A DNA stretch of 60,144 bases from Thermus sp. 2.9 (GTDB lineage: Bacteria; Deinococcota; Deinococci; Deinococcales; Thermaceae): positions 1 through 60,144 of the forward strand of contig NZ_JTJB01000004.1 in the NCBI RefSeq assembly GCF_000794385.1. The letters are read 5' to 3'. Each line of letters starts with the position of its first letter. The first letter of the stretch is position 1. The notes beneath the pieces were generated by a model that did no database searches, had not been told where the DNA came from, and was given only the letters and a program-made list of their open reading frames with translations. Position numbers and translations under genes: made by a program. This document shows, piece by piece, positions 3,491 to 24,745 of this stretch.

Positions 3491-3500
3491 AGCCACCTCC

Positions 3501-7236: not shown

Positions 7237-7683
7237 GCATTCCGGTCGGATTACATGATTTAGAAGCGATAATCGTTCTCACAAGATCTCCTCCTCCAAG
7301 GCCGTGGCGTTGGGGATTTCCACCCTTCGGCCGGAAAGCCGGATGAGTCCCCGCCGGTAAAGCTCCCCCAGGTTGCGGGAAACCGCCTCGGGCACCGTGC
7401 CCAGCAGGGCGGCCAGCTCGGGGTTGGTGGGAAGGCGGAAGCCCTGCCCTTCCTCCCTTAGCCTCTCCAGAAGGAACTCGCAAAGCCTCTCCCGCACCTC
7501 GTGGAAGACCAGGCGGTCCAGGAGGTGGAGGAGCTGGCCTTGCCGGCGGGCCAGGTAGCGGATCAGGGCCCGGGCTAGGGGGGGTCTTTCCTCCACCAGG
7601 CGGAAGAAGGCTTCCTTGGGAATGGCCAGGACCTGGCTTTCCTCCAAGGCCTCGGCGCTGGCGGGGTAGGTGGGCCGCTCTGA

Positions 7684-7686
7684 AGT
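7684..7686. repeat. Target-site duplication, left copy (AGT)
   Basis: AGT directly abuts the left end of the IS and is repeated at 8909-8911. Joining dnrT across one copy restores a continuous Crp/Fnr reading frame. Confidence 0.8.
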
Positions 7687-7750
7687 GCTGCCCCAAATTT
7701 GGACCACCCCAAGAGAGAGGCCAAGGGGTGTAGTCTGAAGGGGTAGCGAG

Positions 7751-8038
7751 ATGCGCAGGTGGTCAGCGAAGGAAAAGGCAAAAATTGTGTTGGAGGTCTT
7801 GTCGGGTCAAAGGACCGTGGCCGAAGCCTGCCGGGCTTATGGGGTGGCGGAGTCCCTCCTTTACCGCTGGCAGCGGGAGTTCCTGGAGAACGCCCACGCC
7901 GCCTTCACCTCCGGCTGCGCGGAGCAGGAGGCCCGCATCCGCGAGCTGGAACGCTTGGTCGGCCAGATGGCCCTGGAGCTGGAGGTCCTAAAAAAAGCCT
8001 CGGGGCTCTACCGGCAAAGGAAAGGCGGGAGCTGGTGA
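7751..8038 (+). CDS. IS3-family OrfA (HTH protein)
   Basis: Ninety-five residues. The N-terminal helix-turn-helix reads RRWSAKEKAKIVLEVLSGQR, TVAEACRAYGVAESLLYRW. It is followed by a leucine-zipper-like helix (QEARIRELERLVGQMALELEVLKK) used for multimerisation. Near its end the codons CTA AAA AAA form an A7 run at 7990-7996 where ribosomes can slip -1 into orfB and make the OrfAB transposase. Its stop overlaps a possible orfB GTG (8035). Confidence 0.88.
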   Translation: MRRWSAKEKAKIVLEVLSGQRTVAEACRAYGVAESLLYRWQREFLENAHAAFTSGCAEQEARIRELERLVGQMALELEVLKKASGLYRQRKGGSW

Positions 8039-8874
8039 AGGCCCTCAAGGGAGCCTACCCCCTCCGCCTGCTTTCCCGGGTCCTCAGGGTGCCCCGGAGC
8101 ACCCTCTACTACCGGCCCCAGGACCCCCCTCCCGAGGAGAGGGCCCTCCGGGAACGCTTGCGGGCCCTGGCGGCGGCCTGGCCCCGGTACGGCTACCGGC
8201 GCCTCACCGCCCTCTTGCGGGGGGAAGGTGTCCAGGTGGGGGAGAAGCGGGTGCGCTCCCTGATGCGCGAGGAGGGCTTGCTCCTTCCCCGCAAGGGGCC
8301 CTCCCCCAGGACCACCTCCCCAGGGGGCCTTCTCCCGGAAGGGGTGAAGAACCTCCTGCCGGGACTCGCGGTGACCCGCCCGCACCAGGTGTGGGTGGCG
8401 GACCTGAGCTACGTGGTCCTGGGGGAGGGGGTGGCCTATCTGGCGGTGGTGATGGACCTCCACACCCGCAAGATCCTGGGGGTGGCCCTGGGGCCGAGGC
8501 TGTCCCAGGGGCTTGCTCTTGCGGCCCTGGAGATGGCCCTGAGGGAGGGGTGTCCCGAGGTGCACCATTCGGACCGGGGGGTGCAGTACACCTCCAGGGC
8601 GTATGTGGAGCGGCTTTTGGGGCTAGGGGTGCGGCTCAGTTACGCGGGGACGGGGAGGCCTTGGGAGAACGGGCACGCGGAGCGGTTGATCCGGACGATC
8701 AAAGAGGAGTGGGTGGCCTTGCGGGAGTACAGGACCCTGGCGGAGGCGCGGGCCTCGGTGGAGCGGTTTGTCTTCCAGGTGTACAACCGTAAGCGTCCTC
8801 ACTCGGCCTTGGATTACATGACGCCCGAGGCCTTTTCGGAGAGCCTGTTGAAAGGGGATGGGAGCCCTGACTAA
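8035..8874 (+). CDS. IS3-family OrfB transposase (DDE integrase core)
   Basis: The catalytic part of the transposase. It has an HTH_21-like region (LRALAAAWPRYGYRRLTALL, KRVRSLMREEGL) and then the rve integrase core with DDE residues in VWVADLSYV, HHSDRGVQYTS and ENGHAERLIRTIKEEW, ending with YNRKRPHSALDYMTPEAF. The frame is open upstream of the A7 site, as expected for a -1 frameshift fusion with OrfA, so the active product is probably 7751-8874. Independent initiation at GTG 8035 is the alternative. Confidence 0.88.
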   Translation: MKALKGAYPLRLLSRVLRVPRSTLYYRPQDPPPEERALRERLRALAAAWPRYGYRRLTALLRGEGVQVGEKRVRSLMREEGLLLPRKGPSPRTTSPGGLLPEGVKNLLPGLAVTRPHQVWVADLSYVVLGEGVAYLAVVMDLHTRKILGVALGPRLSQGLALAALEMALREGCPEVHHSDRGVQYTSRAYVERLLGLGVRLSYAGTGRPWENGHAERLIRTIKEEWVALREYRTLAEARASVERFVFQVYNRKRPHSALDYMTPEAFSESLLKGDGSPD

Positions 8875-8908
8875 ACTGACCGGTAAGGTGGTCCAAATTT
8901 AGGGCCGC

Positions 8909-8911
8909 AGT
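8909..8911. repeat. Target-site duplication, right copy (AGT)
   Basis: AGT directly follows the right inverted repeat and matches the copy at 7684-7686. Confidence 0.8.
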
Positions 8912-9172
8912 ACACTCCAGGAAGAGGGCCACCTCCGCCAGGACCCGGCCTGGCCCCTCCACGTGGAGGACCACCTGCTTCCTTCCCTCGGGGTCTAGCT
9001 TGTAGACCTTGATGAGCCCCTTTTGCACCACGAAGAGGGCCCGGACGGCCTCCCCCTCTAAAAAGAGCACCTCCCCCTTTCGCAGGGGGCGGGGCCGGGC
9101 TTCCCGGGCCAAGGCTTCCAGGTCCTTGGGGTCCAGCTCGCGGAAGAGGGGTACTTGGGCCAGGTCCACGCT

Positions 9173-10993
9173 TCACCCCCTTAGGGCCTCGAGGCGCCTT
9201 TTGGCTTCCTGCAGGAAGGGCTCCAGCTTTAAGGCCCGGGCGTACGCCTCCTTGGCCACCTCCTTGTAGCCCAGGGCCTCGGCCAGGTCCCCCAGGCGCA
9301 GCAGGCCGGAAAGGGCCCTTTCCTGGAGGTAGGTCCGTTCCGCCTCCGCCCACTCCCCGTAGGGGTCGTCGCCGAAGAGGGGGCCTTTGTAAAGCTCCAG
9401 GGCCTGGCGGAGGGTTTTGAAGGCGGAAAGCCCCTCCTCTAGGTCCGCTTTGCGCATGAGCTCCTCAAAGCGCTCAAAGTCCAGGAAGCGCCGCTCCGGA
9501 AGGCGCAGGCGGTAGTACTCCCCTTCCCGCTCCACGATGCCGGGCAGGGCCTTGCGCAGGTGGTAAACCAGGGCGTACACCTCTTGCCGGGCCCGCTCGG
9601 GTTCCAACTCGGGGAAGAAGGCCTCGGCCAGGTCGTCCGTATAGAGGGCCCGGTCCTTGTTGGCCAGGAGGAACTTGAACAGGCGGTAAGCCCCGCTGCG
9701 GCCAAAGTCCTTGGGGGAGAGCTCCTTGCCCCGGAAGCGGAGGCGGAAGCCCCCCAGGGCGTAGACCTCGAGGTCCAGCTCCCGCGCCTCGCTTTGGGGA
9801 AAGAGGAGGGGAACGGCGAGCCGGGAGAACCAGAGGGCGGGGGCGGCGGGGCCGGTGGGGGGTTTGGGCGCACGGGCGTGGAACAAGGTGCCCACGGCCG
9901 CCACCTGCCCCTTGGCCCAAAGGGGCAGGCAGATCCTGGGCCTCCCTTCCGCTTCGGGGCATTGGGGTAGGCCGTTTTTCAGGCCCACCACCTCCCCCCG
10001 CCAGGCGGGGCAGTCCTGCATGGCGCACGGGGGCACGAGCCCCAGCTCCATCCGCTCCCCGGCTGGGGTCACCAGCCTTACCCCGGTGGCCTGGGCCAGG
10101 CGTTTGAGCCCCTGGAGGAAGGTCTGCCGGGCCTCGGAAACCTCCCCGCGGTGGAGCCGTTCCCCTAAGGCCAAAAGCCCCACCTCCCCCAGGCGGGTGA
10201 GGAGGGTGTAGAGGGTGCTGGCGAAAAGGGGGGCGATGCGGGAAAGGGCCTCGAGGGCCTCCTCGTGGTCCAGGCCCGGGTTCCGCGCTGCCAGGTTGAG
10301 CACGCCGATGAGGCCGTGGGGAAGCTCCAGGGGGTAGCAGATATAGGTCTGGTAGCCCAGCTGCTTCACCTTTTGCCGCAGGTACCGGGGGTCTTGCTGC
10401 AGGGCGTGGGTGAAGAGGGGCTCCCGACGCAGGGCCACGATGCCCGGGTACCCCTCGCCCAGGTGAAACCAGGGCTTCTCTAAAAACGCTTCCCGGTGGA
10501 GCCCCTCGTAGGCGGTGAGGATCAGGTGATGCCCTTCAGGGTCGGCCAAAAAGAGCTCGGCGGCCTCCATGCCCAGGGCCTTACGCAAGGTGCCCAAGAA
10601 GGTCTCCAGAGCCTCCGGGAGGGCTTCGGGATGGTGTAGGAGGTGCTGCGTAAGGCGGGAGAGCTCCAGCAGGAGGTCCGGGGGCTCGGCCTTTTCTGGG
10701 TAAAACTCTATTAAAAAGCCCCCATCCTCCCGGTACCCCTGGCAGCGCAGGCGCTTGCCCTTGAGGAGCAGAGGGGTGCTGGCCCGGTAGGCTCCCCGCT
10801 TCAGCTCCCGCTGCACAGGGCAGCGGGCGCAGAGAGGGCGGCCAAAGGGGTCCTGACCCTGCACCAGGAGGGCACAGGGGAGATCGGACCCTTCCAGGCC
10901 CAAGGAGGGGTCGGCCTCCAGGACCTCCGCCCACCCTTCAGCGGTGAGCCTGAGCCGGGCTAAAGGCCGCATCGCCTTCAGGGTAGGGCCCAT
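9173..10993 (-). CDS. dnrS: DnrS-type regulator (GAF plus SARP/BTAD)
   Basis: A 606-residue cytoplasmic regulator. The N-terminal ~100 residues look PAS-like and carry a CARC pair (GRPLCARCPVQRELKRG). A GAF domain follows (about 115-270, with LGEGYPGIVALRREPLFTH and LIGVLNLAARNPG), then a second sensory region with CPAW and CPEAEGRPRICLPLW. From about 415 there is a winged helix of the SARP/OmpR type (LSPKDFGRSGAYRLFKFLLA) and a bacterial transcriptional activation domain of helical repeats. In Thermus, DnrS works with DnrT to switch on nar genes under nitrate without oxygen. It is divergent from narC, and dnrT follows in the same operon. This copy is intact. Confidence 0.85.
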   Translation of the reverse strand: MGPTLKAMRPLARLRLTAEGWAEVLEADPSLGLEGSDLPCALLVQGQDPFGRPLCARCPVQRELKRGAYRASTPLLLKGKRLRCQGYREDGGFLIEFYPEKAEPPDLLLELSRLTQHLLHHPEALPEALETFLGTLRKALGMEAAELFLADPEGHHLILTAYEGLHREAFLEKPWFHLGEGYPGIVALRREPLFTHALQQDPRYLRQKVKQLGYQTYICYPLELPHGLIGVLNLAARNPGLDHEEALEALSRIAPLFASTLYTLLTRLGEVGLLALGERLHRGEVSEARQTFLQGLKRLAQATGVRLVTPAGERMELGLVPPCAMQDCPAWRGEVVGLKNGLPQCPEAEGRPRICLPLWAKGQVAAVGTLFHARAPKPPTGPAAPALWFSRLAVPLLFPQSEARELDLEVYALGGFRLRFRGKELSPKDFGRSGAYRLFKFLLANKDRALYTDDLAEAFFPELEPERARQEVYALVYHLRKALPGIVEREGEYYRLRLPERRFLDFERFEELMRKADLEEGLSAFKTLRQALELYKGPLFGDDPYGEWAEAERTYLQERALSGLLRLGDLAEALGYKEVAKEAYARALKLEPFLQEAKRRLEALRG

Positions 10994-11067
10994 CTCTTAG
11001 GACAGATGTCCCGGGCCGGGCAAGTGGCCGCCAGGCGGTGCCCCCACACTGAGGGCCGGAGGTGAGG
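10994..11067. promoter_or_regulatory. dnrS-narC divergent control region with palindrome
   Basis: Only 74 bases separate the dnrS ATG from the narC ATG. The region contains a perfect inverted repeat, GGACAGATGTCC at 11000-11011, unlike the CCWTGAC palindromes found elsewhere in the window. I see no strong sigma-A hexamers, which fits activator-dependent transcription of nar. GGAGGTGA precedes narC. Confidence 0.5.
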
Positions 11068-11859
11068 ATGAAGCGAAGGCTCTATCCCCTGGTCCTGGCC
11101 TTCCTCCTGGTCCCTGCCTGGGCCCAGGAGGGGAAGGCCCTTTACGGCCAGTTCTGCGCCAGCTGCCACGGGGCCGAGGCCCAGGGCATCCCTGGGGCCA
11201 TCCCGCCCTTGGCCGGGAACCCCAGGGCCCAGGACGAAACGCACGTGGTCCAGGTGGTGCGCCAAGGGCTTTCCGGGCCCTTGGAGGTGGGGGGTGTCAC
11301 CTACAACGGCGTGATGCCTCCCCTGCCGCAGGTTTCCGAGGCAGAGGCAAGGGCCATCGCCCAGTACCTGAAGAGCCTGGGCGGGGCCCCTGCCGAGGCG
11401 GCCCCCCCGGCGCCTAGGGTCCAAGGGGATGCCGCCTTGGGCCGGGCCCTTTACCTGGGGCAGAAGCCCTTGCGAAACGGCGGCGCTCCCTGCCAGGCCT
11501 GCCACACCGTGGCCGGGGTGGGTTTCTTCGGTGGGGGTTCCCTGGGCAAGGACCTCATGGACGCCGCCAAGCGGCTGGGCGGGGAGGCTGGGCTTTCCGC
11601 CCTGCTCACCAACCCCGCCTTCCCGGTAATGCGGGAGGCCTATAAGGGCAGGCCGCTTACCGAGGCCGAGGCGGCAGCCTTGGCGGCGTTCTTGGTGCAG
11701 GTTTCGCAGGAAGCCCCGAGGCCCCCTTCCCTGTACCTGGGCCGCTTCTTGGTGGCGGGGGTATTCCTCTTGGGGCTCCTTTTGGTCTACCAGGCGGCGG
11801 TGTGGCAGCTCCGCCCCAGGAGCCTGGCGGAGCGCATTCGGAGCCAGCTTAGGAGGTGA
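11068..11859 (+). CDS. narC: NarC diheme cytochrome c
   Basis: About 263 residues, the first nar gene as in other Thermus. It has a signal peptide ([16 protein letters not shown]), a first heme site CASCH ([12 protein letters not shown]) with the methionine region [10 protein letters not shown], and a second heme site CQACH. A single C-terminal membrane helix ([20 protein letters not shown]) leaves a short positively charged tail. NarC hands electrons from the nitrate reductase membrane part to periplasmic acceptors and is needed for enzyme assembly in Thermus. ATG 11068 is chosen because GGAGGTGAGG stands at the right distance; GTG 11062 is the alternative. The stop lies inside the narG ribosome site. 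Confidence 0.9.
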
Positions 11860-11861
11860 GC

Positions 11862-14800
11862 ATGAGGGACTGGATCAAGGAGATAGAAAACCCGGCGGAG
11901 AGGAAGTGGGAGGAGTTCTACCGCAACCGCTTTCAGCACGACAAAAGGGTGCGCACCACCCACGGGGTGAACTGCACCGGCTCCTGCTCCTGGGAGGTCT
12001 TCGTCAAGGACGGCATCGTTACCTGGGAACTCCAGGCCACGGACTACCCGAGCCTCGAGGCCGGCCTTCCCCCCTACGAGCCCCGGGGGTGCCAGCGGGG
12101 CATCAGCTTTAGCTGGTACCAGTACAGCCCCATCCGGGTGAAGTACCCCTACGCCCGCGGGGCCCTTTTGGACCTCTGGCGCGAGGCCAAGGCCAAGCAC
12201 CCAGACCCCGTGGCCGCCTGGGAGGCCATCCAGAGCGACCCCCACCAGCGCAAGCGCTACCAAAAGGCGAGGGGCAAGGGAGGTTTCCGCCGGGTGTCCT
12301 GGGACGAGGCGCTGGAACTCATCGCCGCCGCGGTGGTTTCCACGGTGAAGCGCCATGGGCCAGACCGGGTCATCGGGTTTTCCCCCATCCCCGCCATGAG
12401 CCAGGTTTCCTACGCCGCCGGAAGCCGCTTCCTCTCCCTCTTGGGCGGCGTGCCCATGAGCTTTTACGACTGGTATTGCGACCTGCCCAACGCCTCGCCG
12501 GAGATCTGGGGGGAGCAGACGGACGTCCACGAGTCCGCCGACTGGTACAACGCCCGCTTCATCGCCGTCATGGGCTCCAACCTCAACATGACCCGCACCC
12601 CGGACACCCACTTCATCGCCGAGGTGCGGCACGCCGGGGCCAAGCTCACCGTCTTCAGCCCCGACTTCTCCCAGGTTTCCAAGTACGCCGACTGGTGGAT
12701 CCCCATAAACCCCGGTCAGGACGGCGCCTTTTGGATGGCGGTGAACCACGTTCTCCTGAAGGAGTTCTACGCCGATCAGGAGGTGTCCTACTTCCAGGAC
12801 TACCTGAAGCGCTACACGGATAGCCCCTTCCTGGTGGAGATCAAGGACGGCCGTCCCGGGCGCTACCTCCGGGCGAACCGCCTTGCGGCGTACGCCGAGG
12901 AGGAAAACGGCGACTTCAAGCTCCTCATCTACGACGAGGCCAAGGGTCCCCGGATGCCCGCTGGAACTTTGGGCTTCCGCTGGCAGAAGGAAAAGGGCAA
13001 GTGGAACCTGAAGCTGGAAGACCCCAAGACCGGCGAACCCCTTAACCCCCGCCTCACCCTCCTGGGGGTGGAGGACGAGGTGGTCCTGGTGGAGCTGGAC
13101 GATTTCGCCTCGGACCGCAAGCTCAAGCGCGGGGTTCCCGTGAAGTACCTCACCACCAGGGAAGGGGAGAAGGTGGCGGTGGCCACGGTCTTTGACCTGC
13201 TCATGGCCCAGTTCGGGGTGGGCCGGGGTCTGCCCGGGGACTACCCGCAAAGCTACGAGGACGACCTGCCCTACACCCCGGCTTGGCAGGAGAAGTGGAC
13301 GGGGATCCACCGGGAAACCCTCCTCCGGTACGCCCGGGCCTGGGGGGAGAATGGCCTTAAGACCCAGGGGAAAAACCTCATCATCATCGGCGCCGGCATC
13401 AACCACTGGTACCACAACAACCTCATGTACCGCGCCGGGATCGTGGCCCTCATGCTCACGGGGAGCGTGGGGGTGAACGGGGGCGGCCTCGCCCACTACG
13501 TGGGCCAGGAGAAGCTCGCCAACCAGGCCAGCTGGGGGCCCATCGCCTTCGCCACCGACTGGGGCTACCCCCCTCGGCAGCAGAACACGCCGAGCTTCCA
13601 CTACGTCCACTCGGACCAGTGGCGCTACGAGCGTGGCTTCTCCGCCTACGACAAGACGGCCCAGGGGCTTTCCGACCACACCGTGGACCACCAGGTGCGG
13701 GCGGTGCGCAAGGGGTGGCTTCCCTTCTTCCCGCAATTCAACAAGAACCCCTTGGAGGTGGTGAAGGAGGCGGAGGCCAAAGGGGCCAAGACCGAGGCGG
13801 AGGTGGTCCAGTACGTGGTGGAAGCCCTGAAGCGGGGCGAGCTGAGGTTCGCCGTGGAAGACCCGGACGCCCCGGAGAACTGGCCCAGGGTCTGGTTTAT
13901 CTGGCGGGGGAACGCCATCGGCACCAGCGCCAAGGGGCACGAGTTCTTCCTGAAGCACTACCTGGGCACCCACACCAACGCCATCGCCGAGGAGGTGGCG
14001 GAAGAGCAGGTGGCGGAGGTGGTGTACCGCAAGCCTGCCCCCGAGGGCAAGCTGGACCTGGTGGTGGACCTCAACTTCCGCATGGACACCAGCGCACTTT
14101 ATTCCGACATCGTTCTTCCCGCCGCCACCTGGTACGAGAAGGACGACCTGAACACCACCGACCTCCACACCTTCATCAACCCCCTGCAGGCCGCCGTGCC
14201 CCCTTCCTGGGAGTCCAAGCCCGACTGGGAGATTTTCAAGGCCATCGCCAAAAGGGTCTCGGAGCTGGCCAGGGTCCACCTGCCCAAGCCCGTGAAGGAC
14301 ATCGTCATGATCCCCCTGCAGCACGACACCCTCGACGAGCTGGCCCAGCTAGAGGACCGGGACTGGAAGCGGGGCGAGGTGGAGCCCATCCCCGGGAAAA
14401 CCATGCCCAAGTTCCGGGTGGTGGAGCGCGACTACACCCAGCTCTACGAGAAGATGGTCACCCTTGGCCCGGCGGTGGAGAAGAACGGGGTGGGGATGCA
14501 CGGGCTTTCCATTCCCGTGGAGGATTTCTACCGGGAGCTCGCCGAGCGCCAACCCCGGCTTTACCAAGGGGAGAAGCGGCCCAGCCTCGAGGAGCCCCGC
14601 CAGGTGGCGGAAGCCATCCTCTTCCTGGACCCGGTATCCAACGGGGAGCTCGCCTACCGGGCCTTCTTGGACGAGGAGAAGAAAACCGGGGTGAAGCTCA
14701 CCGACCTGGCGGAGGGCAACCGCCACGTCCGCATCTCCTTCAAGGACCTGGTGGCCCAGCCCCGCCGCCAGCTCACCACCCCCACCTGGAGCGCCATCCT

Positions 14801-15452
14801 CAACCAAGGCCGGGCCTACAGCCCCTACACCCTGAACGTGGAGCGCCTCGTTCCCTGGCGCACCCTCACGGGGCGGCAGCACTTCTACCTGGACCACCCC
14901 AACTACCTGGCCTGGGGCGAGCACCTACCCACCTACAAGCCCCGCCCCGAGGTCCACATGCTCCAGGAAACGGAAAAAAGCGCTAAGGAGGCCCAGGGCA
15001 AGCTCATGAACTACATCACCCCCCACGGCAAGTGGTCCATCCACTCCACCTACTCCGAGAACCACCGCATGATGACGCTTTCCCGGGGCGGTTACCCCAT
15101 CTGGCTCAACGACAAGGACGCCGCCGAGCTCGGCATCCAGGACAACGACTGGGTGGAGCTTTTCAACGATAACGGGGTCTTCGTGCAGCGGGCCATCGTC
15201 TCCGCCCGCATTCCCCGGGGCACGGTCTTCGTCTACCACGCCACGGAGCGCACGGTGGGCATTCCCAAGAGCCCGCTAAGGGGCCAGCGGGCGGGGATGA
15301 ACAATTCCATCACCCGGGCCCGCCTCAAGCCCGTGCTGATGTCGGGCGGCTACGCCCAGTTCACCTACGCCTTCAACTACTGGGGGCCTGTGGGGGTGAA
15401 CCGGGACACCTGGGTCTACGTGCGCAAGCTGGAGAAGCCCCCGGAGTGGTAA
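11862..15452 (+). CDS. narG: NarG nitrate reductase alpha subunit
   Basis: The 1196-residue molybdenum subunit that reduces nitrate to nitrite. The N-terminal FS0 cluster motif is [11 protein letters not shown] with a later GCQRGIS cysteine. The Mo-ligand region is [20 protein letters not shown], and [29 protein letters not shown] and the C-terminal [17 protein letters not shown] segments are typical of NarG. There is no Tat signal, so it faces the cytoplasm. AGGAGGTGAGC precedes ATG 11862. narC ends just before it and narH follows after 12 bases. The sequence is full length with no damage. Confidence 0.96.
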
Positions 15453-15464
15453 AGGAGGAAGCCC

Positions 15465-17000
15465 ATGAAGGTTAGAGCCCACATGTCCATGCTCTTCCAT
15501 CTGGACAAGTGCATCGGCTGCCACACCTGCTCCATCGCCTGCAAGAACCTGTGGACCGACCGCAAGGGCGCGGAGTACATGTGGTGGAACAACGTGGAAA
15601 CGCGGCCTGGGGCCGGCTACCCCACGGGCTGGGAGGACCAGGACCGCTTCAAGGGGGGGTGGGCGTACAGGGATGGCCACCTGGACCTTAGGCTCCACTC
15701 CCGCGCCCAAGGCCTTTTCCGCCTTTTCTTCAACCCCGCTTTGCCTTCCTTGGATGACTACTACGAGCCTTATACCTTCCGTTACTCCGACCTTTTCACC
15801 GCCCCCGAAAGCGAGTACCAGCCCACGGCCATCCCCGTTTCCATGATCACCGGGGAGCCCATGACCCCCGAGACTGGGCCCAATTGGGACGATGACCTTG
15901 GAGGAAGCCCTCTCTACGCGCAGAACGATCCCAACCTCAAGGCCCTAGACCCTGAGGTGCGGGCGCAGCTTCAGGAGATTGAGGGGGTGGTCTTCCAATA
16001 CCTGCCCCGGATCTGCAACCACTGCCTGAACCCCGCCTGCGTGGCCGCCTGCCCCAGCGGGGCCATCTACAAGCGGGCCGAAGACGGCGTGGTCCTGGTG
16101 AACGAGAACAAGTGCAAGGCCTGGCGGATGTGCGTGGCCGCTTGCCCCTACAAAAAGGTCTACTACAACTGGGCCACGGGCAAGAGCGAGAAGTGCATCC
16201 TCTGCTTCCCCCGGCTGGAAACCGGCCAGGCCCCGGCCTGCGCCCACTCCTGCGTGGGGCGGATCCGCTACATGGGGGTTTTGCTGTACGATGCCGACCG
16301 CATCCCCGAGGCGGCCATGGTGCCGGACGAGGAGCTGGTGGCCTCCCAGCTCTCCCTCATCCTGGACCCCTTTGACCCCGAGGTCATCGCCGCCGCCCAG
16401 GCGGAAGGGATAGACGAGAGTTGGATCAAGGCGGCCCAGAACTCGCCCATCTACAAGTTCGTCAAGGTCTGGCGGCTCGCCTTGCCCCTCCACCCCGAGT
16501 ACCGCACCCTGGCCATGATGTTCTACGTCCCCCCCCTCTCCCCGGTGGTGGCCACGGTGGAGAAGGCCCTGCGGGCAAGCCAGGGCAATGGGGGCCTGGT
16601 GCGGCTGGACCTGCCGGAAACCGACCTGGACTTTGAGCTTTACGAAAGCCTGGAGAAGGCCCGCATGCCCGTGAAGTACCTGGCCAAGCTCTTCGCCGGC
16701 GGGAACGAGGCCCTCATCCTGCCCATCCTCAAGAAGATGCTGGCGGTGCGCATCCTCAAGCGGCAGGAGAGCCTCGAGGGCCGCCCCACGGAACGGGCGC
16801 TGCGGGTGCTGGCCGATGCGGGCCTCACCCTGGAGGAGGCCGAGGCCATCTACCGCCTCACCACCTTGCCCACCTTGGAGGAGCGGTTCGTCCTGCCCCC
16901 CTACCACCGGGAGATGGCCGCCGAGGTGTGGAAGGATCCGTTGGCCGCCAAGGGCGAGGCGGGTTTCGGCTACATCCAGCCGCCCCTGCGGGGGGAGTAG
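15465..17000 (+). CDS. narH: NarH nitrate reductase beta subunit
   Basis: A 511-residue iron-sulfur subunit that wires NarI to NarG. Four cysteine groups are visible: CIGCHTCSIACKNLW, CNHCLNPACVAACPSGAIYK, CKAWRMCVAACPYKK (Trp replaces one Cys, giving the 3Fe-4S cluster) and CILCFPRLETGQAPACAHSC. The length and the C-terminal domain match the family. AAAGGAGGAAGCCC precedes the ATG. It lies between narG and narJ in the operon. Confidence 0.96.
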   Translation: MKVRAHMSMLFHLDKCIGCHTCSIACKNLWTDRKGAEYMWWNNVETRPGAGYPTGWEDQDRFKGGWAYRDGHLDLRLHSRAQGLFRLFFNPALPSLDDYYEPYTFRYSDLFTAPESEYQPTAIPVSMITGEPMTPETGPNWDDDLGGSPLYAQNDPNLKALDPEVRAQLQEIEGVVFQYLPRICNHCLNPACVAACPSGAIYKRAEDGVVLVNENKCKAWRMCVAACPYKKVYYNWATGKSEKCILCFPRLETGQAPACAHSCVGRIRYMGVLLYDADRIPEAAMVPDEELVASQLSLILDPFDPEVIAAAQAEGIDESWIKAAQNSPIYKFVKVWRLALPLHPEYRTLAMMFYVPPLSPVVATVEKALRASQGNGGLVRLDLPETDLDFELYESLEKARMPVKYLAKLFAGGNEALILPILKKMLAVRILKRQESLEGRPTERALRVLADAGLTLEEAEAIYRLTTLPTLEERFVLPPYHREMAAEVWKDPLAAKGEAGFGYIQPPLRGE

Positions 17001-17009
17001 GGGGGAAGC

Positions 17010-17522
17010 ATGCTGAGCCCCACCTTGTTGGAAACCCTGGCCCTGGCGTTGGACTACCCGGTGCCGGGGCGGCTTGAGGAGCTTTGGCGCCGCTGGATCG
17101 CGTGCCCGAGAAGCCCAGCCAAGCAGCGGCTGGAGCGCTTCCTGCGCCAGGTGGAAGACCTTTCCCTGGGCGAGTGGGAGGAGCTCTACACCCGTACCCT
17201 GGACCTCACCCCCACCACCGCGCCCTATGTGGGCTACGCCGCCTACGGGGAAAGCTACCAGCGGGGCGAGCTTTTGGCCTCTTTGGTGCGGGCTTACCGG
17301 GAGCTCGGCCTGGACCCGGGGAGCGAGCTTCCCGACCACCTGGCCAACGTCCTCCGCTACCTGGCCCGGAGCCAGGCTCCCCTGCCGGAACTTTTGGAGA
17401 TCCTGCCCAAGGCGCTTTCCGAGATGCACCGCACCCTGAAGACCCTGGACGCCAAGAACCCCTACCTCCTGGTCCTCGAGGCCGTCCAGGAGGCCTTGCA
17501 GGGGGTCTTGTCGGGGAGGTGA
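17010..17522 (+). CDS. narJ: NarJ nitrate reductase assembly chaperone
   Basis: A 170-residue all-helical TorD/NarJ chaperone that helps insert molybdenum cofactor into NarG and dock NarGH on NarI. Landmarks are LALALDYPVPGRLEELW, LYTRTLDLTPTTAPYVGYAA (the family YVGY-type loop) and ANVLRYLA. It lacks a signal peptide. It sits nine bases after narH and three before narI. Confidence 0.9.
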   Translation: MLSPTLLETLALALDYPVPGRLEELWRRWIACPRSPAKQRLERFLRQVEDLSLGEWEELYTRTLDLTPTTAPYVGYAAYGESYQRGELLASLVRAYRELGLDPGSELPDHLANVLRYLARSQAPLPELLEILPKALSEMHRTLKTLDAKNPYLLVLEAVQEALQGVLSGR

Positions 17523-17525
17523 AGG

Positions 17526-18203
17526 ATGAGCTGGAACACCCTCCTTTTTGGCGTCTTTCCCTACATCGCCCTTACCCTGGCGGTGGCGGTCACCGCCTAC
17601 CGCATGGTCTACCGGCCCTTTTCCGTTTCCGCCCAGTCCAGCCAGCTCCTGGAGCAAAAACGCCTCTTCTTCGGCTCCACCGCCATGCACTGGGGGCTGG
17701 TGATCGTCCTCCTGGGCCACCTCTTGGCCCTTCTGGTGCCCAAGGGGCTCCTCCTTTGGAACGCCGTGCCCCTGCGCCTTTACCTCCTGGAAATCACCGG
17801 GCTTGGCCTGGGGCTTTGGGCCCTTGCGGGCACCTACATCCTCCTTGCCCGCCGCATCGCCGTGGCCCGGGTGCGGGCGGCCTCCACCCCCATGGACTAC
17901 CTGGTCTTGCTCCTGATCTTCCTCTCCGCCCTCACCGGGGTCCTCACCGCCCTGCTTTACCGCTACGGGAGCTACTGGTTCCCCGCGGTGATGACCCCTT
18001 ACCTGTGGTCCGTCTTCACCCTCCAGCCTAGGCCGGAGCTCATTTTGGACCTGCCCTTTTGGACCAAGCTCCATGTGTTCAACTTCTGGCTCCTTTTGGC
18101 CCTCTTCCCCTTCTCCCGGCTGGTGCACATCATTACCGTGCCCTTGGGATACCTGGTGCGGCCTTGGCAGATCGTGATCTGGATTAGGAAGCTGGCGAGG
18201 TGA
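17526..18203 (+). CDS. narI: NarI nitrate reductase gamma subunit (cytochrome b)
   Basis: A 225-residue membrane subunit with five predicted helices that oxidises quinol and carries two b hemes. The ligand histidines are in AMHWGLVIVLLGHLLALLVP (helix 2) and LHVFNFWLLLALFPFSRLVH (helix 5). The C-terminal cytoplasmic RPWQIVIWIRK docks on NarH. It is spaced three bases from both narJ and narK1. Confidence 0.94.
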   Translation: MSWNTLLFGVFPYIALTLAVAVTAYRMVYRPFSVSAQSSQLLEQKRLFFGSTAMHWGLVIVLLGHLLALLVPKGLLLWNAVPLRLYLLEITGLGLGLWALAGTYILLARRIAVARVRAASTPMDYLVLLLIFLSALTGVLTALLYRYGSYWFPAVMTPYLWSVFTLQPRPELILDLPFWTKLHVFNFWLLLALFPFSRLVHIITVPLGYLVRPWQIVIWIRKLAR

Positions 18204-18206
18204 ACC

Positions 18207-19535
18207 ATGGTCCATGATCCTGCGCAACTGGAACGGGAAAAGCCGGACCGCCTCCGCGTCCTTTGGCTTTCCACCCTGGCCTTCACCCTGATGTTTGCCG
18301 TTTGGCTCATGTTCGGGGTGCTGGGCGTGCCCATCCGCAAGGAGTTTGGGCTCACGGACGTGCAGCTTTCCTGGCTTTCGGCGGTGGCCATCCTGAACGG
18401 CTCCTTGTGGCGGCTCCTGGCGGGCATCTTTGCCGACCGCTACGGGGGAAGGCTGGTCTTCACCCTGATGCTCTTCTTCACCGCCATCCCCGCCTACCTG
18501 GTGTCCCGCGCCGGAAGCTACGAGGAGCTCCTCCTTTACGCCTTCTTGGTGGGCTTCGCCGGGAACAGCTTCAGCGTGGGGATCGCCTGGAACTCCGCCT
18601 GGTTTCCCAAGGAGCAACAGGGCTTCGCCCTGGGGGTCTTCGGGGCGGGGAACGTGGGGGCCAGCGTCACTAAGTTCATCGGCCCCGCCCTCATTGCCAG
18701 CATCCCGCCCGCTGGGTACCTGGGGGGGCTCATCCCCGGGGGTTGGCGCTTCATCCCCTTCCTCTACAGCATCCTTCTGGTCCTCATGGGCCTGGTCCTG
18801 TGGTTCGGCACCCCCCGACAAGACAAGCGGCCGGGGCAGGGGCGGCCCCTCTTGGCGATGCTCAGGCCCCTCAGGTACGTGCGGGTCTGGCGCTTCAGCC
18901 TTTACTACGTGGTGGTCTTCGGCGCCTACGTGGCCTTGTCCTCCTGGCTGCCCAAGTACTACGTGGACGTCTTCGGCCTGCCCCTGCACGAAGCCGCGCT
19001 CCTCACCGCCCTTTTCATCTTCCCGGCGAGCCTCCTCCGCCCCGTGGGCGGTTATTTCTCTGACCACCTTGGGGCTCGGCGGGTCATGTACTGGACCTTC
19101 GGCATCATCCTCCTGGCCTCGGGAGTGCTCATGATGCCCGAAGGGCACATCGTTCTTTACACCAAGGAGGGGACCAAGGAGGTTATGCGGTTCACCATGA
19201 ATGTCTGGCTCTTCACCCTTCTGGTCTTCCTCATCGGGGTGGGGATGGGCATCGGCAAGGCGGCGGTGTACAAGCACATCCCCACCTACTTCCCCCAGGA
19301 CGTGGGCGCGGTGGGGGGGTTAGTGGGGATGCTCGGGGCGTTGGGAGGCTTCTTCCTGCCGCCCCTTTTCGCCTACACCCAGGCTTGGACGGGACTTCCC
19401 CAGACGACCTTTTTCGTGCTCTTCCTCCTCACCGCCCTCGCCTTCCTCTGGATGCACCTCACGGTGATCAAGCTGCTTCAGGAAGAGGCCAAGCACCTGC
19501 GGCACGAGTTTGAGCTGAAAGGAGACCGGCCATGA
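18207..19535 (+). CDS. narK1: NarK1-type nitrate/nitrite transporter (MFS)
   Basis: A 442-residue major facilitator of the NarK/NasA group with 12 membrane helices. The family motifs are RLLAGIFADRYGGR (loop 2-3), LVGFAGNSFSVGIAWNSAWFP (nitrate signature, first half) and GIGMGIGKAAVYKHIPTYFP (second half). It imports nitrate or exchanges it for nitrite, supplying NarG in the cytoplasm. The first ~15 residues are charged and cytoplasmic. Its stop overlaps the narK2 ATG by four bases. Confidence 0.92.
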   Translation: MVHDPAQLEREKPDRLRVLWLSTLAFTLMFAVWLMFGVLGVPIRKEFGLTDVQLSWLSAVAILNGSLWRLLAGIFADRYGGRLVFTLMLFFTAIPAYLVSRAGSYEELLLYAFLVGFAGNSFSVGIAWNSAWFPKEQQGFALGVFGAGNVGASVTKFIGPALIASIPPAGYLGGLIPGGWRFIPFLYSILLVLMGLVLWFGTPRQDKRPGQGRPLLAMLRPLRYVRVWRFSLYYVVVFGAYVALSSWLPKYYVDVFGLPLHEAALLTALFIFPASLLRPVGGYFSDHLGARRVMYWTFGIILLASGVLMMPEGHIVLYTKEGTKEVMRFTMNVWLFTLLVFLIGVGMGIGKAAVYKHIPTYFPQDVGAVGGLVGMLGALGGFFLPPLFAYTQAWTGLPQTTFFVLFLLTALAFLWMHLTVIKLLQEEAKHLRHEFELKGDRP

Positions 19536-20863
19536 CCAAGACCCTCAAGGACACCTGGCTGAAAGAGTGGAACCCAGAAGACCCCAAGCGCTGGGACCCC
19601 GCCTTGGCCTGGCGCACCCTTTGGATCACCACCTTCAACCTCACCCTCTCCTTCATCACCTGGTACGTGGTGAGCGCCCTGGTGGTGCGCTTGCCCAAGT
19701 CCGGCTTCCCCCTGGACACGACCCAGCTTTTCTGGCTCACCGCCATGCCAGGGCTGGCGGGGGGGACGTTGCGCATCGTTTGGACCTTCCTGCCCCCTAT
19801 TTTGGGCACCCGGCACCTGGTCACCTTCTCCACCTTGCTCCTCCTGATTCCCCTTTTGGGCTGGGGCTTTGCCGTGCAAAACCCCCACACGCCGTATGGG
19901 GTTCTCCTTTTCCTCGCCTTCTTGGCGGGGATTGGCGGGGGGAACTTCTCCGGCTTCATGCCCTCCACCAGCTACTTCTTTCCCAAACGCCTGCAGGGAA
20001 CGGCCTTGGGCTTGCAGGCGGGAATCGGTAACTTCGGGGTTTCCGTGGTCCAGTTCGTAACCCCTTGGATCATCGGTTTTGCGCTCTTCGGTTCCCTGCT
20101 GGGGGGCCCCCAGACCTTTACCCCTAAGCCTGGGGTCAGCCAGCCCATTTGGCTGCAAAACGCCACGTTTATCTGGATCCCCTTTGTTCTGGTGGGAGCC
20201 TGGCTCGCCTGGACCTTCTTGCGGAGCGTCCCGGTGCGGGCCAACTTCCGCGAGCAGTTTGACATCTTCCGCGACAAGCACACCTGGATCATGACCAGCC
20301 TCTACATCATGACCTTCGGCTCCTTCTCGGGGTTTTCCGCCATCTTCCCCTTGCTCATCCGGGAGGTCTACGGGAAGTTTGATGGCGCCCCCGATCCCCT
20401 GCGCTATGCCTTCCTTGGGCCCCTGGTGGGTTCCTTGGCCCGGGTGTTGGCTGGGCCCGTGAGCGACCGCTATGGCGGAGCCGTGGTGACCCAGGTTTCC
20501 GCCCTGGGCATCTTCCTATCCGCCCTCTTGGTCACCCTCTTCACCCGGCCGACTTCCTTGGAGCAGTTCCCCCTCTTTGTGCTGGCCATGCTCCTGGTCT
20601 TCTTCTTTAGCGGGGTGGGGAACGCCAGCACCTTCAAGCAGATGCCCATGATCTTCCCCCCGAGGCAGGCGGGGGGGGTGATCGGCTGGACGGCGGCCAT
20701 CGCCGCTTATGGGCCCTTTATCTTCTCCACCCTGGCCGCTTACACCCAGAAGGCCACGGGGGGCTTTACCGCCTTCTTCTACGGCCTCATGGTCTTCTAC
20801 GCCCTAAATCTCTTCCTAAACTGGTACTACTACGCCCGCAAGGGGGCGGAGAAGCCCTGCTGA
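19532..20863 (+). CDS. narK2: NarK2-type nitrate/nitrite transporter (MFS)
   Basis: A 443-residue second MFS transporter of the same family, distinct from NarK1. It has an N-terminal KEWNPEDPKRWD extension, TFNLTLSFITWYVVSALVV in helix 1, the nitrate signatures GIGGGNFSGFMPSTSYFFP and GVGNASTFKQMPMIFPP, and GPVSDRYGGAVV. Paired NarK types usually divide the work between proton-driven nitrate uptake and nitrate/nitrite exchange. It ends the nar operon, followed by a strong hairpin. Confidence 0.92.
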   Translation: MTKTLKDTWLKEWNPEDPKRWDPALAWRTLWITTFNLTLSFITWYVVSALVVRLPKSGFPLDTTQLFWLTAMPGLAGGTLRIVWTFLPPILGTRHLVTFSTLLLLIPLLGWGFAVQNPHTPYGVLLFLAFLAGIGGGNFSGFMPSTSYFFPKRLQGTALGLQAGIGNFGVSVVQFVTPWIIGFALFGSLLGGPQTFTPKPGVSQPIWLQNATFIWIPFVLVGAWLAWTFLRSVPVRANFREQFDIFRDKHTWIMTSLYIMTFGSFSGFSAIFPLLIREVYGKFDGAPDPLRYAFLGPLVGSLARVLAGPVSDRYGGAVVTQVSALGIFLSALLVTLFTRPTSLEQFPLFVLAMLLVFFFSGVGNASTFKQMPMIFPPRQAGGVIGWTAAIAAYGPFIFSTLAAYTQKATGGFTAFFYGLMVFYALNLFLNWYYYARKGAEKPC

Positions 20864-20956: not shown

Positions 20957-21175
20957 ATGGAGCTGGACGTGCGGAGCATACCCCCAAGGGAGCGGCACCC
21001 CCGGATCTTTGGCGTCTTTGACGGCCTGGCGCCGGGGGAGAGTTTCGTTTTGGTCAACGACCACGATCCTAAGCCCCTTTACTACCAGTTCCAGGCGGAG
21101 CGGCCCGGGGCCTTCGCCTGGGAGTACCTCGAGGCCGGCCCCGAGGTGTGGCGGGTGCGGATCACCCGGCGGTAG
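20957..21175 (+). CDS. DUF2249 protein
   Basis: Seventy-two residues forming one DUF2249 unit: LDVRSIPPRERHPRIFGVFDGLAPGESFVLVNDHDPKPLYYQF and a short strand pair ending VWRVRITRR. The histidines in the DHDP segment are conserved in the family. DUF2249 proteins are found beside denitrification and globin genes and are suspected of handling NO, nitrite or heme. The function is not established. It is the first gene after the nar terminator and sits under its own operator. Confidence 0.8.
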   Translation: MELDVRSIPPRERHPRIFGVFDGLAPGESFVLVNDHDPKPLYYQFQAERPGAFAWEYLEAGPEVWRVRITRR

Positions 21176-21183
21176 GAGGCGGT

Positions 21184-21977
21184 ATGGTCCGGCCGGAGAT
21201 GAAGGTGGCGGAGGTGCTGAAGCGCTGGCCCGAGCTCCTAGAAGTCTTTTTGGAGGCGAGCCCCGCCTTCCGCAAGCTCAAAAACCCCCTTCTGCGCCGG
21301 ACCATGCCTAACCTCGTCACCGTGGCCCAGGCGGCGAGGATCGGGGGGCTTGCCCCGGAGGAGCTGGTGGCTAGGCTCAACCGCGCCTTGGGGGTGGAGG
21401 CCAACCCTTCTATGCCCCTGGCGGAGGAGAGCCTGGTGGGCACCCCGCCCCCGCCTGGCTTTCCGCCCCCGTGGGCTTCCATCTGGACGTGCGGCCCATC
21501 CTGGAAGGGGGAGGCGAACCCTTCCCAAACATCATGGCCGCCGCCAAGGAGGTGAAGCCGGGGAAGCGGCTCGTGCTGGAGGTCCTTTTTGAGCCTGTGC
21601 CCCTTTACCGGGTTTTGGCCAAGCAGGGCTTTTTGGCCTGGTGCGAAAAGCTCGGGGAGCGGCACTACCGGGCCCACTTCTACCGGCAAGGGGCGGAGGG
21701 GGGAATAGGGGGAGGTAAAGGGGTCGCCTCCCTCACCGAGGCCGACTGGGAAGCCTACCAGGCGGAGGTCTTCATTGAAGAGAACCTGGAGCCGCCCCTG
21801 CCCATGATGCGGGTCCTCGAGGCCCTGGCCGCTTTAAAGCCAGGGGAGAAGCTCTTGGTCCACCACGTGCGCCGCCCCGTCCACCTCCTGGCCCGCTTGG
21901 AGGAGGAGGGGCACGCCTACGCCCTAAAGGACCTGGGCCCGGGGCGGGTGGAGCTCCTCATCCGCAAGGGGGGGTAA
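21184..21977 (+). pseudogene. DUF1858-DUF2249-DUF2249 protein, one frameshift
   Basis: The front (MVRPEMKVAEVLKRWPELLE onward) is a DUF1858 domain, with AQAARIGGLAPEELVARLN at its end. After GFPPP the frame is lost at the C5 run 21466-21470. In the next frame the text continues as GFHLDVRPILEGGGEPF with a full DUF2249 unit, then a second one (PPLPMMRVLEALAALKPGEK, HHVRRPVHLLARLEEEGH) to the stop. One extra C restores a ~264-residue protein. A single deletion in a C run could be a sequencing error. The gene is eight bases after the smaller DUF2249 gene and its stop overlaps the next start (TAATG). The product is probably a cytosolic partner in NO or nitrite handling. Confidence 0.75.
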
Positions 21978-22414
21978 TGGGCTTTTGGCACTTCCTCTTC
22001 GTGCGGGCCGCCCTCCTTTACCTGGTTTACACCGCCTTGTTGGGCACCCTTTTTTACCTCTTCCCAAGCCTCGTGGGCCCCTTTCGCCCAAGCCACGTGC
22101 ACGCCGGGCTCGTGGGCTTCTTCTTGCAGATGGTCATGGGCGTGGCCTACTGGATGATGCCCAGGCCCGGGGGGCTAAGGCAGGACCGCCTCGAGGCCCT
22201 CACCTTTTTCCTCCTCAACGCCGGGCTTCTCCTGCGCCTTTTCCTGGAGCCCCTTTACCTCATGGGCCACGCCCAAGCCCGGCCTTGGCTTGGCCTTTCC
22301 GGCGCCCTCCAGCTTCTTGCCACCCTGGTCTTCGCCCACGCCATGACCAAGCGGGTGGTGACGGCGGATATGCTGAGAAAAATGCGCGAGGAGCGGGAAA
22401 GGAGGGGGATATGA
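21977..22414 (+). CDS. Small heme-copper/NnrS-like membrane protein
   Basis: A 145-residue protein with four predicted membrane helices. HVHAGLVGFFLQMVMGVAYW in helix 2 followed by MMPRPGG resembles a helix of heme-copper oxidase subunit I or NnrS-like proteins, where such histidines bind heme or metal. The cytoplasmic tail is a charged helix (KMREERERRG). It is translationally coupled on both sides (TAATG before, ATGA after). A role in heme, copper or NO handling is inferred from the context. I cannot assign an enzyme. Confidence 0.6.
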   Translation: MGFWHFLFVRAALLYLVYTALLGTLFYLFPSLVGPFRPSHVHAGLVGFFLQMVMGVAYWMMPRPGGLRQDRLEALTFFLLNAGLLLRLFLEPLYLMGHAQARPWLGLSGALQLLATLVFAHAMTKRVVTADMLRKMREERERRGI

Positions 22415-23247
22415 GCGCCGTGGAGGTGGAGGCGTTGGTCCTGGACCTGCCCCCCTTGCCCGAGGAGGTCTTCCAGGACCTCCTCGCCTTCGGGGGGCTT
22501 ACCGAGGAGGCCAAGCGGGCCATGCGCCTGGATGCGGAAAAGCTTCTGGAGGGCGCCGCTTCCTTTGTGGCCCTGGTGTACGACCACCTGAGCCGCCACC
22601 CGGGCACCGCCAAGGCTTTGGGCTGGGAAGGGCGGGTGCCGGAGGAAGAGCTTTACCTGAGGCGGGCTTTCTTCGCCGCCTGGCTCGCCCGCACCCTGGG
22701 GGTGGACACCTCGGCGGAGTTCGCCCGGGAGGTGTACCGGGCGGGGCTCTGGCACGGGGGCCTGGGGCCCAAGGGGGCCCACATTCCCCCGGAGTACGTG
22801 GGGCTTTCCTTCGCCCAGGTGGGGCGGTACGTGGCGGAAAGGGTGCGGGACGTGCGCCCTTGGCTCGCATACCTTTCTGCCCAGGAAGAGGTGATGCGCA
22901 AGGGGTTTGACGCCGCCTTGGCGCTTCGGGAAGGGGGGGTTTCCGTCCGCTTCCAGGCCTTGGGCCTGGCCCAGCCCGCCTTGCCCAAGCCCCTTTCCCT
23001 GCGGGCTCTAAGCGTGGAGGAAGCCTTGCGCAAGGTGTATGCCGCCCTTCCTGCCCTAAGGGACGTTTCCCTGGAGCCCCTCTTCGCCGAGGAGGCGGTG
23101 GGCCTATGGTTGGAGCCCAAGACGCTTTGGCGCCTCCGTCCCCGCTTTGCCGTCCTCCTAAACGGCCGGGATGTCCGCTACCTCCAGGGTCTGGCCACCC
23201 CCTTGGCCGAGGGAGACACCCTCACCCTCCTGCCCCCCGGGCGCTAG
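22411..23247 (+). CDS. Protoglobin-like domain fused to a MoaD/ThiS-like domain
   Basis: A 278-residue cytosolic protein. Residues 28-175 resemble the globin of globin-coupled sensors and protoglobin: LTEEAKRAMRLDAEKLLEGA in the pre-A/A helices, VYDHLSRHPG, a candidate proximal histidine in AGLWHGGLG (His115, or His124) and a PPEYVGLSF segment. Residues about 196-278 look like a ubiquitin-like MoaD/ThiS fold: VEEALRKVYAALPALRD, RFAVLLNGRDVRYL and TPLAEGDTLTLLPPGR. It ends in GR rather than the GG needed for thiocarboxylation, so it is probably a structural or partner domain. It sits in the NO-related block, so NO or O2 sensing or binding is likely. The fusion is unusual. Confidence 0.6.
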   Translation: MSAVEVEALVLDLPPLPEEVFQDLLAFGGLTEEAKRAMRLDAEKLLEGAASFVALVYDHLSRHPGTAKALGWEGRVPEEELYLRRAFFAAWLARTLGVDTSAEFAREVYRAGLWHGGLGPKGAHIPPEYVGLSFAQVGRYVAERVRDVRPWLAYLSAQEEVMRKGFDAALALREGGVSVRFQALGLAQPALPKPLSLRALSVEEALRKVYAALPALRDVSLEPLFAEEAVGLWLEPKTLWRLRPRFAVLLNGRDVRYLQGLATPLAEGDTLTLLPPGR

Positions 23248-23297: not shown

Positions 23298-24449
23298 ATG
23301 GTGGCGACCGTCCACACCCGGGTCATCCCCTTGGCCGTTCCCGCCGGGTTCATCTTTCTGGGGGAAGCCTTTCTCCTTTGGGGGGCTTGGCTTTGGGTCC
23401 TCCACCCGGAGGCCTTCCTCGTGCCCCGGCACCCTTTGGGCCTGGCGGGGGCCCACCTGTACCTCCTGGGCTTTGGGGTGGGGGTGCTCCTTGGGGCCAT
23501 GCACCAGCTCTTGCCGGTAGTGCTGGAAGCGCCCCTCTACCGCCCGGCCCTCGGCTACCCGGTGATGGCCCTTTGGGCCTTGGGGGTGGTCCTCTTGGCC
23601 CTGGGCTTTGCCCGGCTGCCGGTCCTTGTCCCCTTGGGCGGGGGGCTAGCCCTTCTCGCCCTCCTCCTTTTCGCCTACCACGCTTACCGGACCTTCCGCC
23701 TTGCCCCGCGCTGGAACCGGGTGGCCACCGCTTTGGCCTGGGTGGTCTTCTACCTGCTCCTCACCCCCCTCTTGGGCCTGGTCCAGGCCCTTTCCCTCCG
23801 CTATGGCTTCTACGACCCCGAGCGCTTGGCGTGGCACCTCCTTGCCGGGCTGGGCGGGGTTTTCCTCCTTTCCATCCTGGGGGTGGGGTACAAGCTGGTT
23901 TCCATGTTCACCCTCACCCACGGGGTGGACGAGGGGGTCTTGGGGCTTTTGCTTTGGGCCGCCAACCTGGGGCTTTGGGGGTTGGCCCTGGGGGAGAGGC
24001 TGGGGTACGGCCTCCTTCTCCTGGCCTACGGCCTTGCCCTCTACGACACCTATCGGATCCTCAAGCACCGCATGAAGCGCGCCCTGGACATCGGGGTGCG
24101 GCACTACCTGGCGGGGCTTGGCTTTTTGGGCCTTGCCCTTCTGGCCCTCCCCTTTAAACCGGTGTGGGCCGCCCTCTGGTTCGCCCTGGGTTTTGTGGGC
24201 CTGGCGGTGAGCGGGATGCTTTACAAAATCCTTCCCTTTTTGGTCTGGACCCACCGCTACGCCCCTAGGGCGGGGAAGGAGCGGGTGCCCCTCCTCAAGG
24301 AGATGCTCCCGGAGGGGCTCGGGTACCTGGCAGGGGGGCTTTGGGCGGTGGGGGCGCTTCTTTTCCCCGTCCTGCCCCAAGCGGCCTGGGGGGTGGCCGT
24401 GGGAGCGGCGGTGCACGCCTACGCTCTTTGGGAGGTGATGCGGCGGTGA
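23298..24449 (+). CDS. NnrS/heme-copper-like polytopic membrane protein
   Basis: A 383-residue protein with about 10-12 hydrophobic helices. It carries paired histidines in [21 protein letters not shown] and in [20 protein letters not shown], with a methionine-rich [11 protein letters not shown]. This layout recalls NnrS (heme and copper membrane proteins of NO metabolism) and heme-copper oxidase subunit I, but the oxidase copper-site HPEVY-type motif is absent. It has its own FNR/DNR-type operator, apparently with almost no leader, and its stop overlaps the DUF59 start (GTGA). A role in tolerance to NO or nitrosative stress is inferred. Confidence 0.65.
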
Positions 24450-24745
24450 GCCTGGAAACGCAAGCCTGGAACCTGCTCAAGACGGTGTACGACCCGGAGC
24501 TGGGCCTGGACGTGGTCAACCTGGGCCTCGTTTACGAGCTCAGGGTGGAGCCTCCCGAGGCCTTTGTGCGCATGACCCTCACCACCCCCGGCTGCCCCCT
24601 GCACGACAGCCTGGGGGAGGCGGTGCGGCGGGCCTTGTCCGCCCTTCCGGGGGTGGAGGAGGTGCGGGTGGAGCTCACCTTTGACCCGCCCTGGACCCCG
24701 GCGAGGCTTTCCCCGGAGGCAAGGCGGCTTTTGGGCTGGGACTAG
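24446..24745 (+). CDS. DUF59/MIP18-type iron-sulfur assembly protein
   Basis: Ninety-nine residues: [20 protein letters not shown] is the DUF59 signature, [12 protein letters not shown] holds the conserved cysteine, and [21 protein letters not shown] is the standard end. Such proteins (SufT/PaaD-like) help mature Fe-S clusters. Coupled to the NnrS-like gene by a GTGA overlap, it may repair NO-damaged clusters. It overlaps the convergent HD-GYP gene by four bases. Confidence 0.85.

Follow-up and report, generated by a model that had tools for sequence, protein, structure and literature searches.

The window analysed here, a stretch of 60,144 nucleotides from Thermus sp. 2.9, carries a nitrate respiration operon followed by a tight row of smaller genes, one of which encodes a protoglobin domain joined to a MoaD-like domain. 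The genes of this locus are as follows.

11062..20863, + strand: narCGHJIKT nitrate respiration operon (narG above the NCBIfam cut-off; synteny with T. thermophilus SG0.5JP17-16)
20957..21175, + strand: drpA (DUF2249), a published denitrification regulatory protein (Pfam; PMC6282519)
21148..21977, + strand: drpB (DUF1858 and two DUF2249), frame-shifted in this assembly
21977..22414, + strand: orf145, a small COX1-like membrane protein (Pfam COX1, E 1.8e-5, under the cut-off)
22411..23247, + strand: the protoglobin/MoaD-like fusion gene, 278 aa (ORF, Pfam, orthologues in Thermus and in the sister Thermales family, purifying selection)
23298..24449, + strand: a multi-span membrane protein of 383 aa, heme-copper-oxidase/NnrS-like by eye
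24446..24745, + strand: a MIP18/SufT-type Fe-S assembly factor (Pfam FeS_assembly_P, E 1.7e-21)

In Thermus the gene order is narCGHJI with MFS transporters, drpA, drpB, orf145, the fusion gene, the 383-aa gene and MIP18/SufT. The place of the fusion behind nar and drpAB is conserved in T. thermophilus and other Thermus and is absent in the sister family; synteny within Thermus supports a fixed position beside the nitrate respiration genes. The stop codon of orf145 and the start codon of the fusion overlap by 4 nt, and drpB and orf145 likewise overlap by a few bases. DrpA and DrpB form a nitrate-sensing system in T. thermophilus, an organism without FNR and NarX/NarL; anoxia together with nitrate activates their promoter, and the loss of the two proteins renders nar expression nitrate-independent (PMC6282519). 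The drp transcript was published as bicistronic in that study, which was limited to drpA and drpB and whose text contains no globin (PMC6282519); the fusion gene lies at the same locus, downstream in the same tight row. In our assembly drpB consists of two overlapping ORFs in different frames and, since it is a single CDS in T. thermophilus, we attribute this to a one-base frameshift, either a sequencing error or a real loss.

The two membrane proteins that flank the fusion each have invariant histidines. Those of orf145 form an HxH motif (H40/H42); its profile gave no convincing solved relative, and its model (pLDDT 69.8) resembled nothing more specific than generic four-helix bundles and thus provides no fold evidence. 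In the 383-aa protein, which is kept in Thermus, in the Meiothermus group and in some other Deinococcota, they are His53 and His180; Pfam and NCBIfam give no family for this protein and its profile no convincing solved relative.

The fusion ORF is complete, with an ATG at 22411, a stop codon ending at 23247 and 278 residues in between. NCBI labels the product 'protoglobin domain-containing protein' and leaves the MoaD-like half unnamed. We delimited the following features within the gene.

22453..22923, + strand: globin domain of the protoglobin/globin-coupled-sensor type, residues 15-171 (PF11563; model match 8h17)
22579..22581, + strand: codon of Tyr57, distal B10 position, invariant (aligned with four solved globins)
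22753..22755, + strand: codon of His115, candidate proximal F8 heme ligand, invariant (aligned with four solved globins)
22939..23244, + strand: MoaD/ThiS-like beta-grasp, residues 177-278 (PF02597; 1v8c by phmmer and by the model)
23071..23136, + strand: beta-hairpin, residues 221-242 (model strands 221-230 and 233-242; W233 invariant)
23233..23244, + strand: C-terminus PPGR replacing PPVAGG, diglycine absent (orthologue comparison)

The protein matched two Pfam families above their cut-offs, Protoglobin (PF11563) over residues 20-145 (E 6.5e-10, 39.7 bits, cut-off 25) and ThiS (PF02597) over residues 238-276 (E 8.6e-6, 26.7 bits, cut-off 22.5). When orthologues were scanned one by one, Protoglobin was detected in 25/25 and ThiS in 23/25 (E<=0.1). 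An AlphaFold2 model built from 18 orthologues gave two confident domains (pLDDT 86.8, pTM 0.86). Its globin half (15-171) has a 3/3 globin fold and matches tlr1989 (8h17) with a Z of 18.1 and 2.0 A over 148 residues, and AfGcHK (5ohe) with a Z of 17.9. The beta-grasp half retrieves 1v8c by phmmer (E 5e-7), and in the model (179-278) it matches the same structure with a Z of 12.6 and 1.8 A over 84 residues, at 39% identity. The last globin helix covers residues 149-173 and the first beta-grasp strand begins at 177. Median dN/dS is about 0.14 for the globin half and about 0.26 for the MoaD-like half, that is, purifying selection acts on both. A chance ORF or a frame artefact is ruled out by the orthologues and the model. 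An earlier note on this DNA had described a globin-like domain fused to a MoaD/ThiS-like domain, to be checked by a profile search and structure prediction of both halves; Pfam and the model agree with it, returning a globin and a MoaD-like fold. The layout that it gave has to be corrected for the second domain, since the beta-grasp spans not the last ~80 residues but ~100 (about 177-278).

In a joint alignment, His115 aligns with the F8 histidine His123 of HemAT and with the F8 histidines of AfGcHK, GsGCS and tlr1989, and Tyr57 aligns with the B10 residue Tyr70 of HemAT and with the equivalent tyrosine of three further solved globins. The protoglobin of M. acetivorans, in which F8 is His120 and B10 is Tyr61, binds O2, CO and NO in vitro (PMC3680402). 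Judging from its sequence, the globin of the fusion probably binds heme. His115 and His124 had both been put forward as the proximal ligand, and the proposal was to fall if no globin fold was predicted or if the histidine was not conserved. The fold is present and His115, at F8, is invariant; His124 is discarded, this position being occupied by Y, F, L and other residues in relatives. The genome also encodes a second protoglobin, a stand-alone protein of 181 aa (G000:C5:7077-7532, L093) which is close to the cyanobacterial tlr1989.

The 3/3 fold, the F8 histidine and the B10 tyrosine are common to the fusion and to globin-coupled sensors and protoglobins (AfGcHK, HemAT, tlr1989/8h17, M. acetivorans Pgb) and, as in globin-coupled sensors, where an N-terminal globin precedes a C-terminal effector, the globin is N-terminal and followed by another domain. 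However, this C-terminal domain is a tailless MoaD-like beta-grasp, whereas that of the sensors is a kinase, cyclase, chemotaxis or STAS domain, and the fusion has extra residues after F8 (LGPKGAHIPPEYV) in comparison to the canonical F-G region of globin-coupled sensors and protoglobins. On the beta-grasp side, the closest solved relative is 1v8c, a MoaD-related protein from T. thermophilus HB8, which with its Thermus paralogues has the same fold and the motif GRDVRYLxGLxTPL. Unlike these proteins, the fusion ends with PPGR rather than PPVAGG, its MoaD-like domain is the C-terminal part of a fusion, and the hairpin 221-242 contains an insertion of ~16 residues, missing in the nearest MoaD-type paralogue when aligned within the same genome.

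The LPPGR ending is identical in 31/31 intact orthologues (26/26 in a first set and 5 copies from MAGs) and also terminates three Thermus plasmid copies, two from T. thermophilus and one from T. brockianus. The PPGR end without GG, which had been correctly pointed out before, is thus a fixed trait and, together with the purifying selection on both halves, this rules out a degenerate or decaying tail: the loss of GG is not simple decay. Since MoaD/ThiS adenylate or thiocarboxylate chemistry uses the terminal glycine, according to Iyer et al. 2006 (PMC1779556), the known sulfur-carrying mechanism is not available to the beta-grasp of the fusion. The nearest carrier in the same genome has PPVAGG and then a further domain. 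Apart from the fusion, the genome encodes carriers that do have a GG tail: a protein joining MoaD to MoaE, a MoaD-related protein, and two short proteins, one of which resembles TtuB. A sixth ThiS match (C36:33947) is a RelA/SpoT-type protein, with what looks from its sequence like a TGS domain.

Fusions of a ThiS/MoaD-type domain to another protein are known, and the available part of Iyer et al. 2006 lists MoaD-MoaE, ThiS-ThiG, sulfite reductase-ThiS and AOR-MoaD; in these, the joined proteins work together in sulfur transfer or in cofactor enzymes, and no globin partner is named in that part (PMC1779556). The accessible text of a beta-grasp survey (PMC1949818) does not contain the word 'globin', and a literature search, with most subscription papers outside its reach, found no description of a globin-MoaD fusion. 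Globin-coupled sensors and MoaD-type fusions are therefore each known, and their combination was not found in the literature searched. Among the globin-coupled proteins described so far we found none with this type of output, and the fusion also presents a sulfur-carrier fold that is fixed in a state incompatible with the known way of carrying sulfur.

The distribution of the gene was examined in 111 Deinococcota genomes, 27 of them Thermus. The intact fusion is present in 19 Thermus, T. parvatiensis having one further, broken copy, and a second Thermales family (f4) adds 12 genomes with an intact copy. When 84,980 species genomes, reaching beyond Deinococcota, were scanned for a peptide pattern, only Thermaceae were returned; a plasmid search returned Thermus only, and a phage collection gave no match. 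Within Thermus, all narG-positive genomes have the fusion (18/18, one copy broken) and seven genomes have neither the fusion nor narG (p about 4e-5), an association that physical linkage alone could explain. In a close relative (G005), an internal deletion has removed narGHJI and left truncated narC and narT remnants (locus L100, C2:29000-48000), and the row from drp through orf145, the fusion and the 383-aa gene to MIP18 is intact despite this deletion. Another genome (G015) has kept the module with the fusion and lacks narG altogether, and on the 26.5-kb plasmid pTF21c of T. brockianus (L034) the drpA-to-MIP18 module lies among sugar and carboxylate transport genes, with no nar genes in the stretch examined. 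In the sister family the fusion and narG are not linked: several genomes have the fusion without narG, and in one (G047) narG is more than a megabase away.

In the Meiothermus group, narG, drpAB, orf145 and the 383-aa protein occur and the fusion is missing; on the Deinococcus side, some genomes likewise encode drpA, orf145 and the 383-aa protein and no fusion. These observations indicate that the module works without the fusion and, with the fusions found away from narG, that the fusion is an optional addition to a broader module of the nitrate/NO type; the distribution outside Thermus rules it out as an obligate partner of nitrate reductase. The companion present in every fusion-bearing genome is orf145 (in pieces in G024), which adjoins the fusion in Thermus and in the sister-family genus g12, where a universal stress protein gene precedes the pair. 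In the genus g19 of the same family, orf145 lies elsewhere, a ferredoxin gene is directly upstream of the fusion in three loci, and a hemC-like gene is found 3' of it in L046 and L047. It is thus orf145, and not any molybdopterin or sulfur-transfer gene, that is the most constant genomic companion of the fusion; no moa, moe or sulfurtransferase gene adjoins it.

A predicted heme globin joined to a tailless carrier fold in a nitrate-respiration setting suggests that the fusion may be an undescribed gas sensor or NO-handling protein. The explanation that we favour, tentatively, is that of a cytoplasmic heme-based gas (NO/O2) sensor-adaptor, in which the beta-grasp has been recycled as a docking module. 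Sequence and model show a globin of the protoglobin type, with His115 at F8 and Tyr57 at B10, whose last helix (149-173) leads into a MoaD-like beta-grasp; this beta-grasp has a fixed, short GR end and lacks the diglycine required by sulfur carriers and conjugated modifiers. The heme would take NO or O2, the ligand would shift the last globin helix, and the docking of the beta-grasp, as putative effector domain, would be altered; its partner may be the co-encoded orf145 or DrpB, so that the gas state would tune the Drp-controlled nitrate/NO response. Both domains above curated cut-offs, a confident model with clear solved-structure matches, the invariant F8 and B10 residues, and a fixed PPGR with both halves under purifying selection argue for such a function. 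The tie of the fusion to the nitrate/NO-response module is supported by the 4-nt overlap with the ever-present orf145, by upstream drpA and drpB, which are published as regulators and are induced when anoxia and nitrate coincide (PMC6282519), and by the Thermus pattern, in which the seven genomes without the fusion all lack narG, although linkage of the genes could by itself produce this pattern. On the other hand, there is no signalling-type output domain, the Meiothermus-group module functions without the fusion, and its position in g19, apart from orf145 and beside ferredoxin, would suit an electron-transfer role equally well. With somewhat less assurance still, we propose that the fusion might represent a new class of globin-coupled sensor, with a tailless former sulfur carrier as docking output and a heme whose NO/O2 state would control the Drp regulators or a heme protein of the membrane. 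The gene is in any case a conserved candidate for nitrate signal perception in T. thermophilus, a genetically tractable host.

The main rival is a globin that detoxifies the NO of nitrate/nitrite respiration by dioxygenase or reductase chemistry, with the beta-grasp docking an electron donor such as ferredoxin. The proximity of nitrate respiration genes and of membrane proteins resembling heme-copper oxidases, the ferredoxin gene immediately 5' of the fusion in g19 and the persistence of the fusion in G005 despite the narGHJI deletion are consistent with this role, but the protein has no flavohemoglobin-type reductase domain and the ferredoxin adjacency is restricted to g19, and we consider it possible but rather unlikely.

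The earlier note had suggested that the fusion could bring a gas-binding heme together with the machinery of molybdopterin or sulfur transfer, and so link gas to nitrate reductase maturation. In such a role the fusion might, for instance, be a MoaD decoy docking on MoaE or MoeB. A MoaD-type fold nearest to 1v8c and the presence of the fusion in every narG-positive Thermus genome would fit, but GG is missing in all orthologues, a MoaD-MoaE fusion and further GG carriers are encoded in the genome already, and the neighbourhood includes no moa, moe or sulfurtransferase gene. Furthermore, the fusion and narG are separable, the former occurring alone in G005, G015, pTF21c and several sister-family genomes and the latter alone in the Meiothermus group. 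With orf145 as constant partner and GG-tailed carriers encoded separately, the link is left unsupported and we regard this coupling as improbable.

A heme carrier or reservoir supplying the co-encoded membrane heme proteins is less probable again: orf145 and the 383-aa protein do resemble heme-ligating membrane proteins and some g19 genomes have a hemC-like gene after the fusion, but the usual gas-pocket Tyr B10 and His F8 are retained and the neighbours of the fusion vary between lineages. That a protease removes the terminal Arg to give a working sulfur carrier or conjugated modifier is hardly credible, since, although the final Arg and the single Gly before it are invariant, the end is two residues shorter than PPVAGG with one Gly only, and NCBIfam SAMP1 is matched at 27.3 bits, below its cut-off of 60.

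Other genes of the region also deserve mention. At the dnrT position, a CRP-like regulator gene (window 7279-9353, - strand) is split by an IS at about 7690-8915: an HTH half (7279-7707) and an apparent other half (8871-9353) are separated by an IS3-family transposase ORF (7759-8874, + strand); this strain may have a disrupted nar master regulator. Upstream of the nar region lies a cytochrome P460-family gene (window 3008-3496, - strand); proteins of this family act on hydroxylamine/NO in other bacteria. Finally, in the Meiothermus group and f4, we observed a gene for a YwiC-like membrane protein adjoining orf145 or one to two genes from it (L105, L110, L091, L050, L108 and L109), assigned by Pfam for L105 and by sequence similarity judged by eye for the other five.
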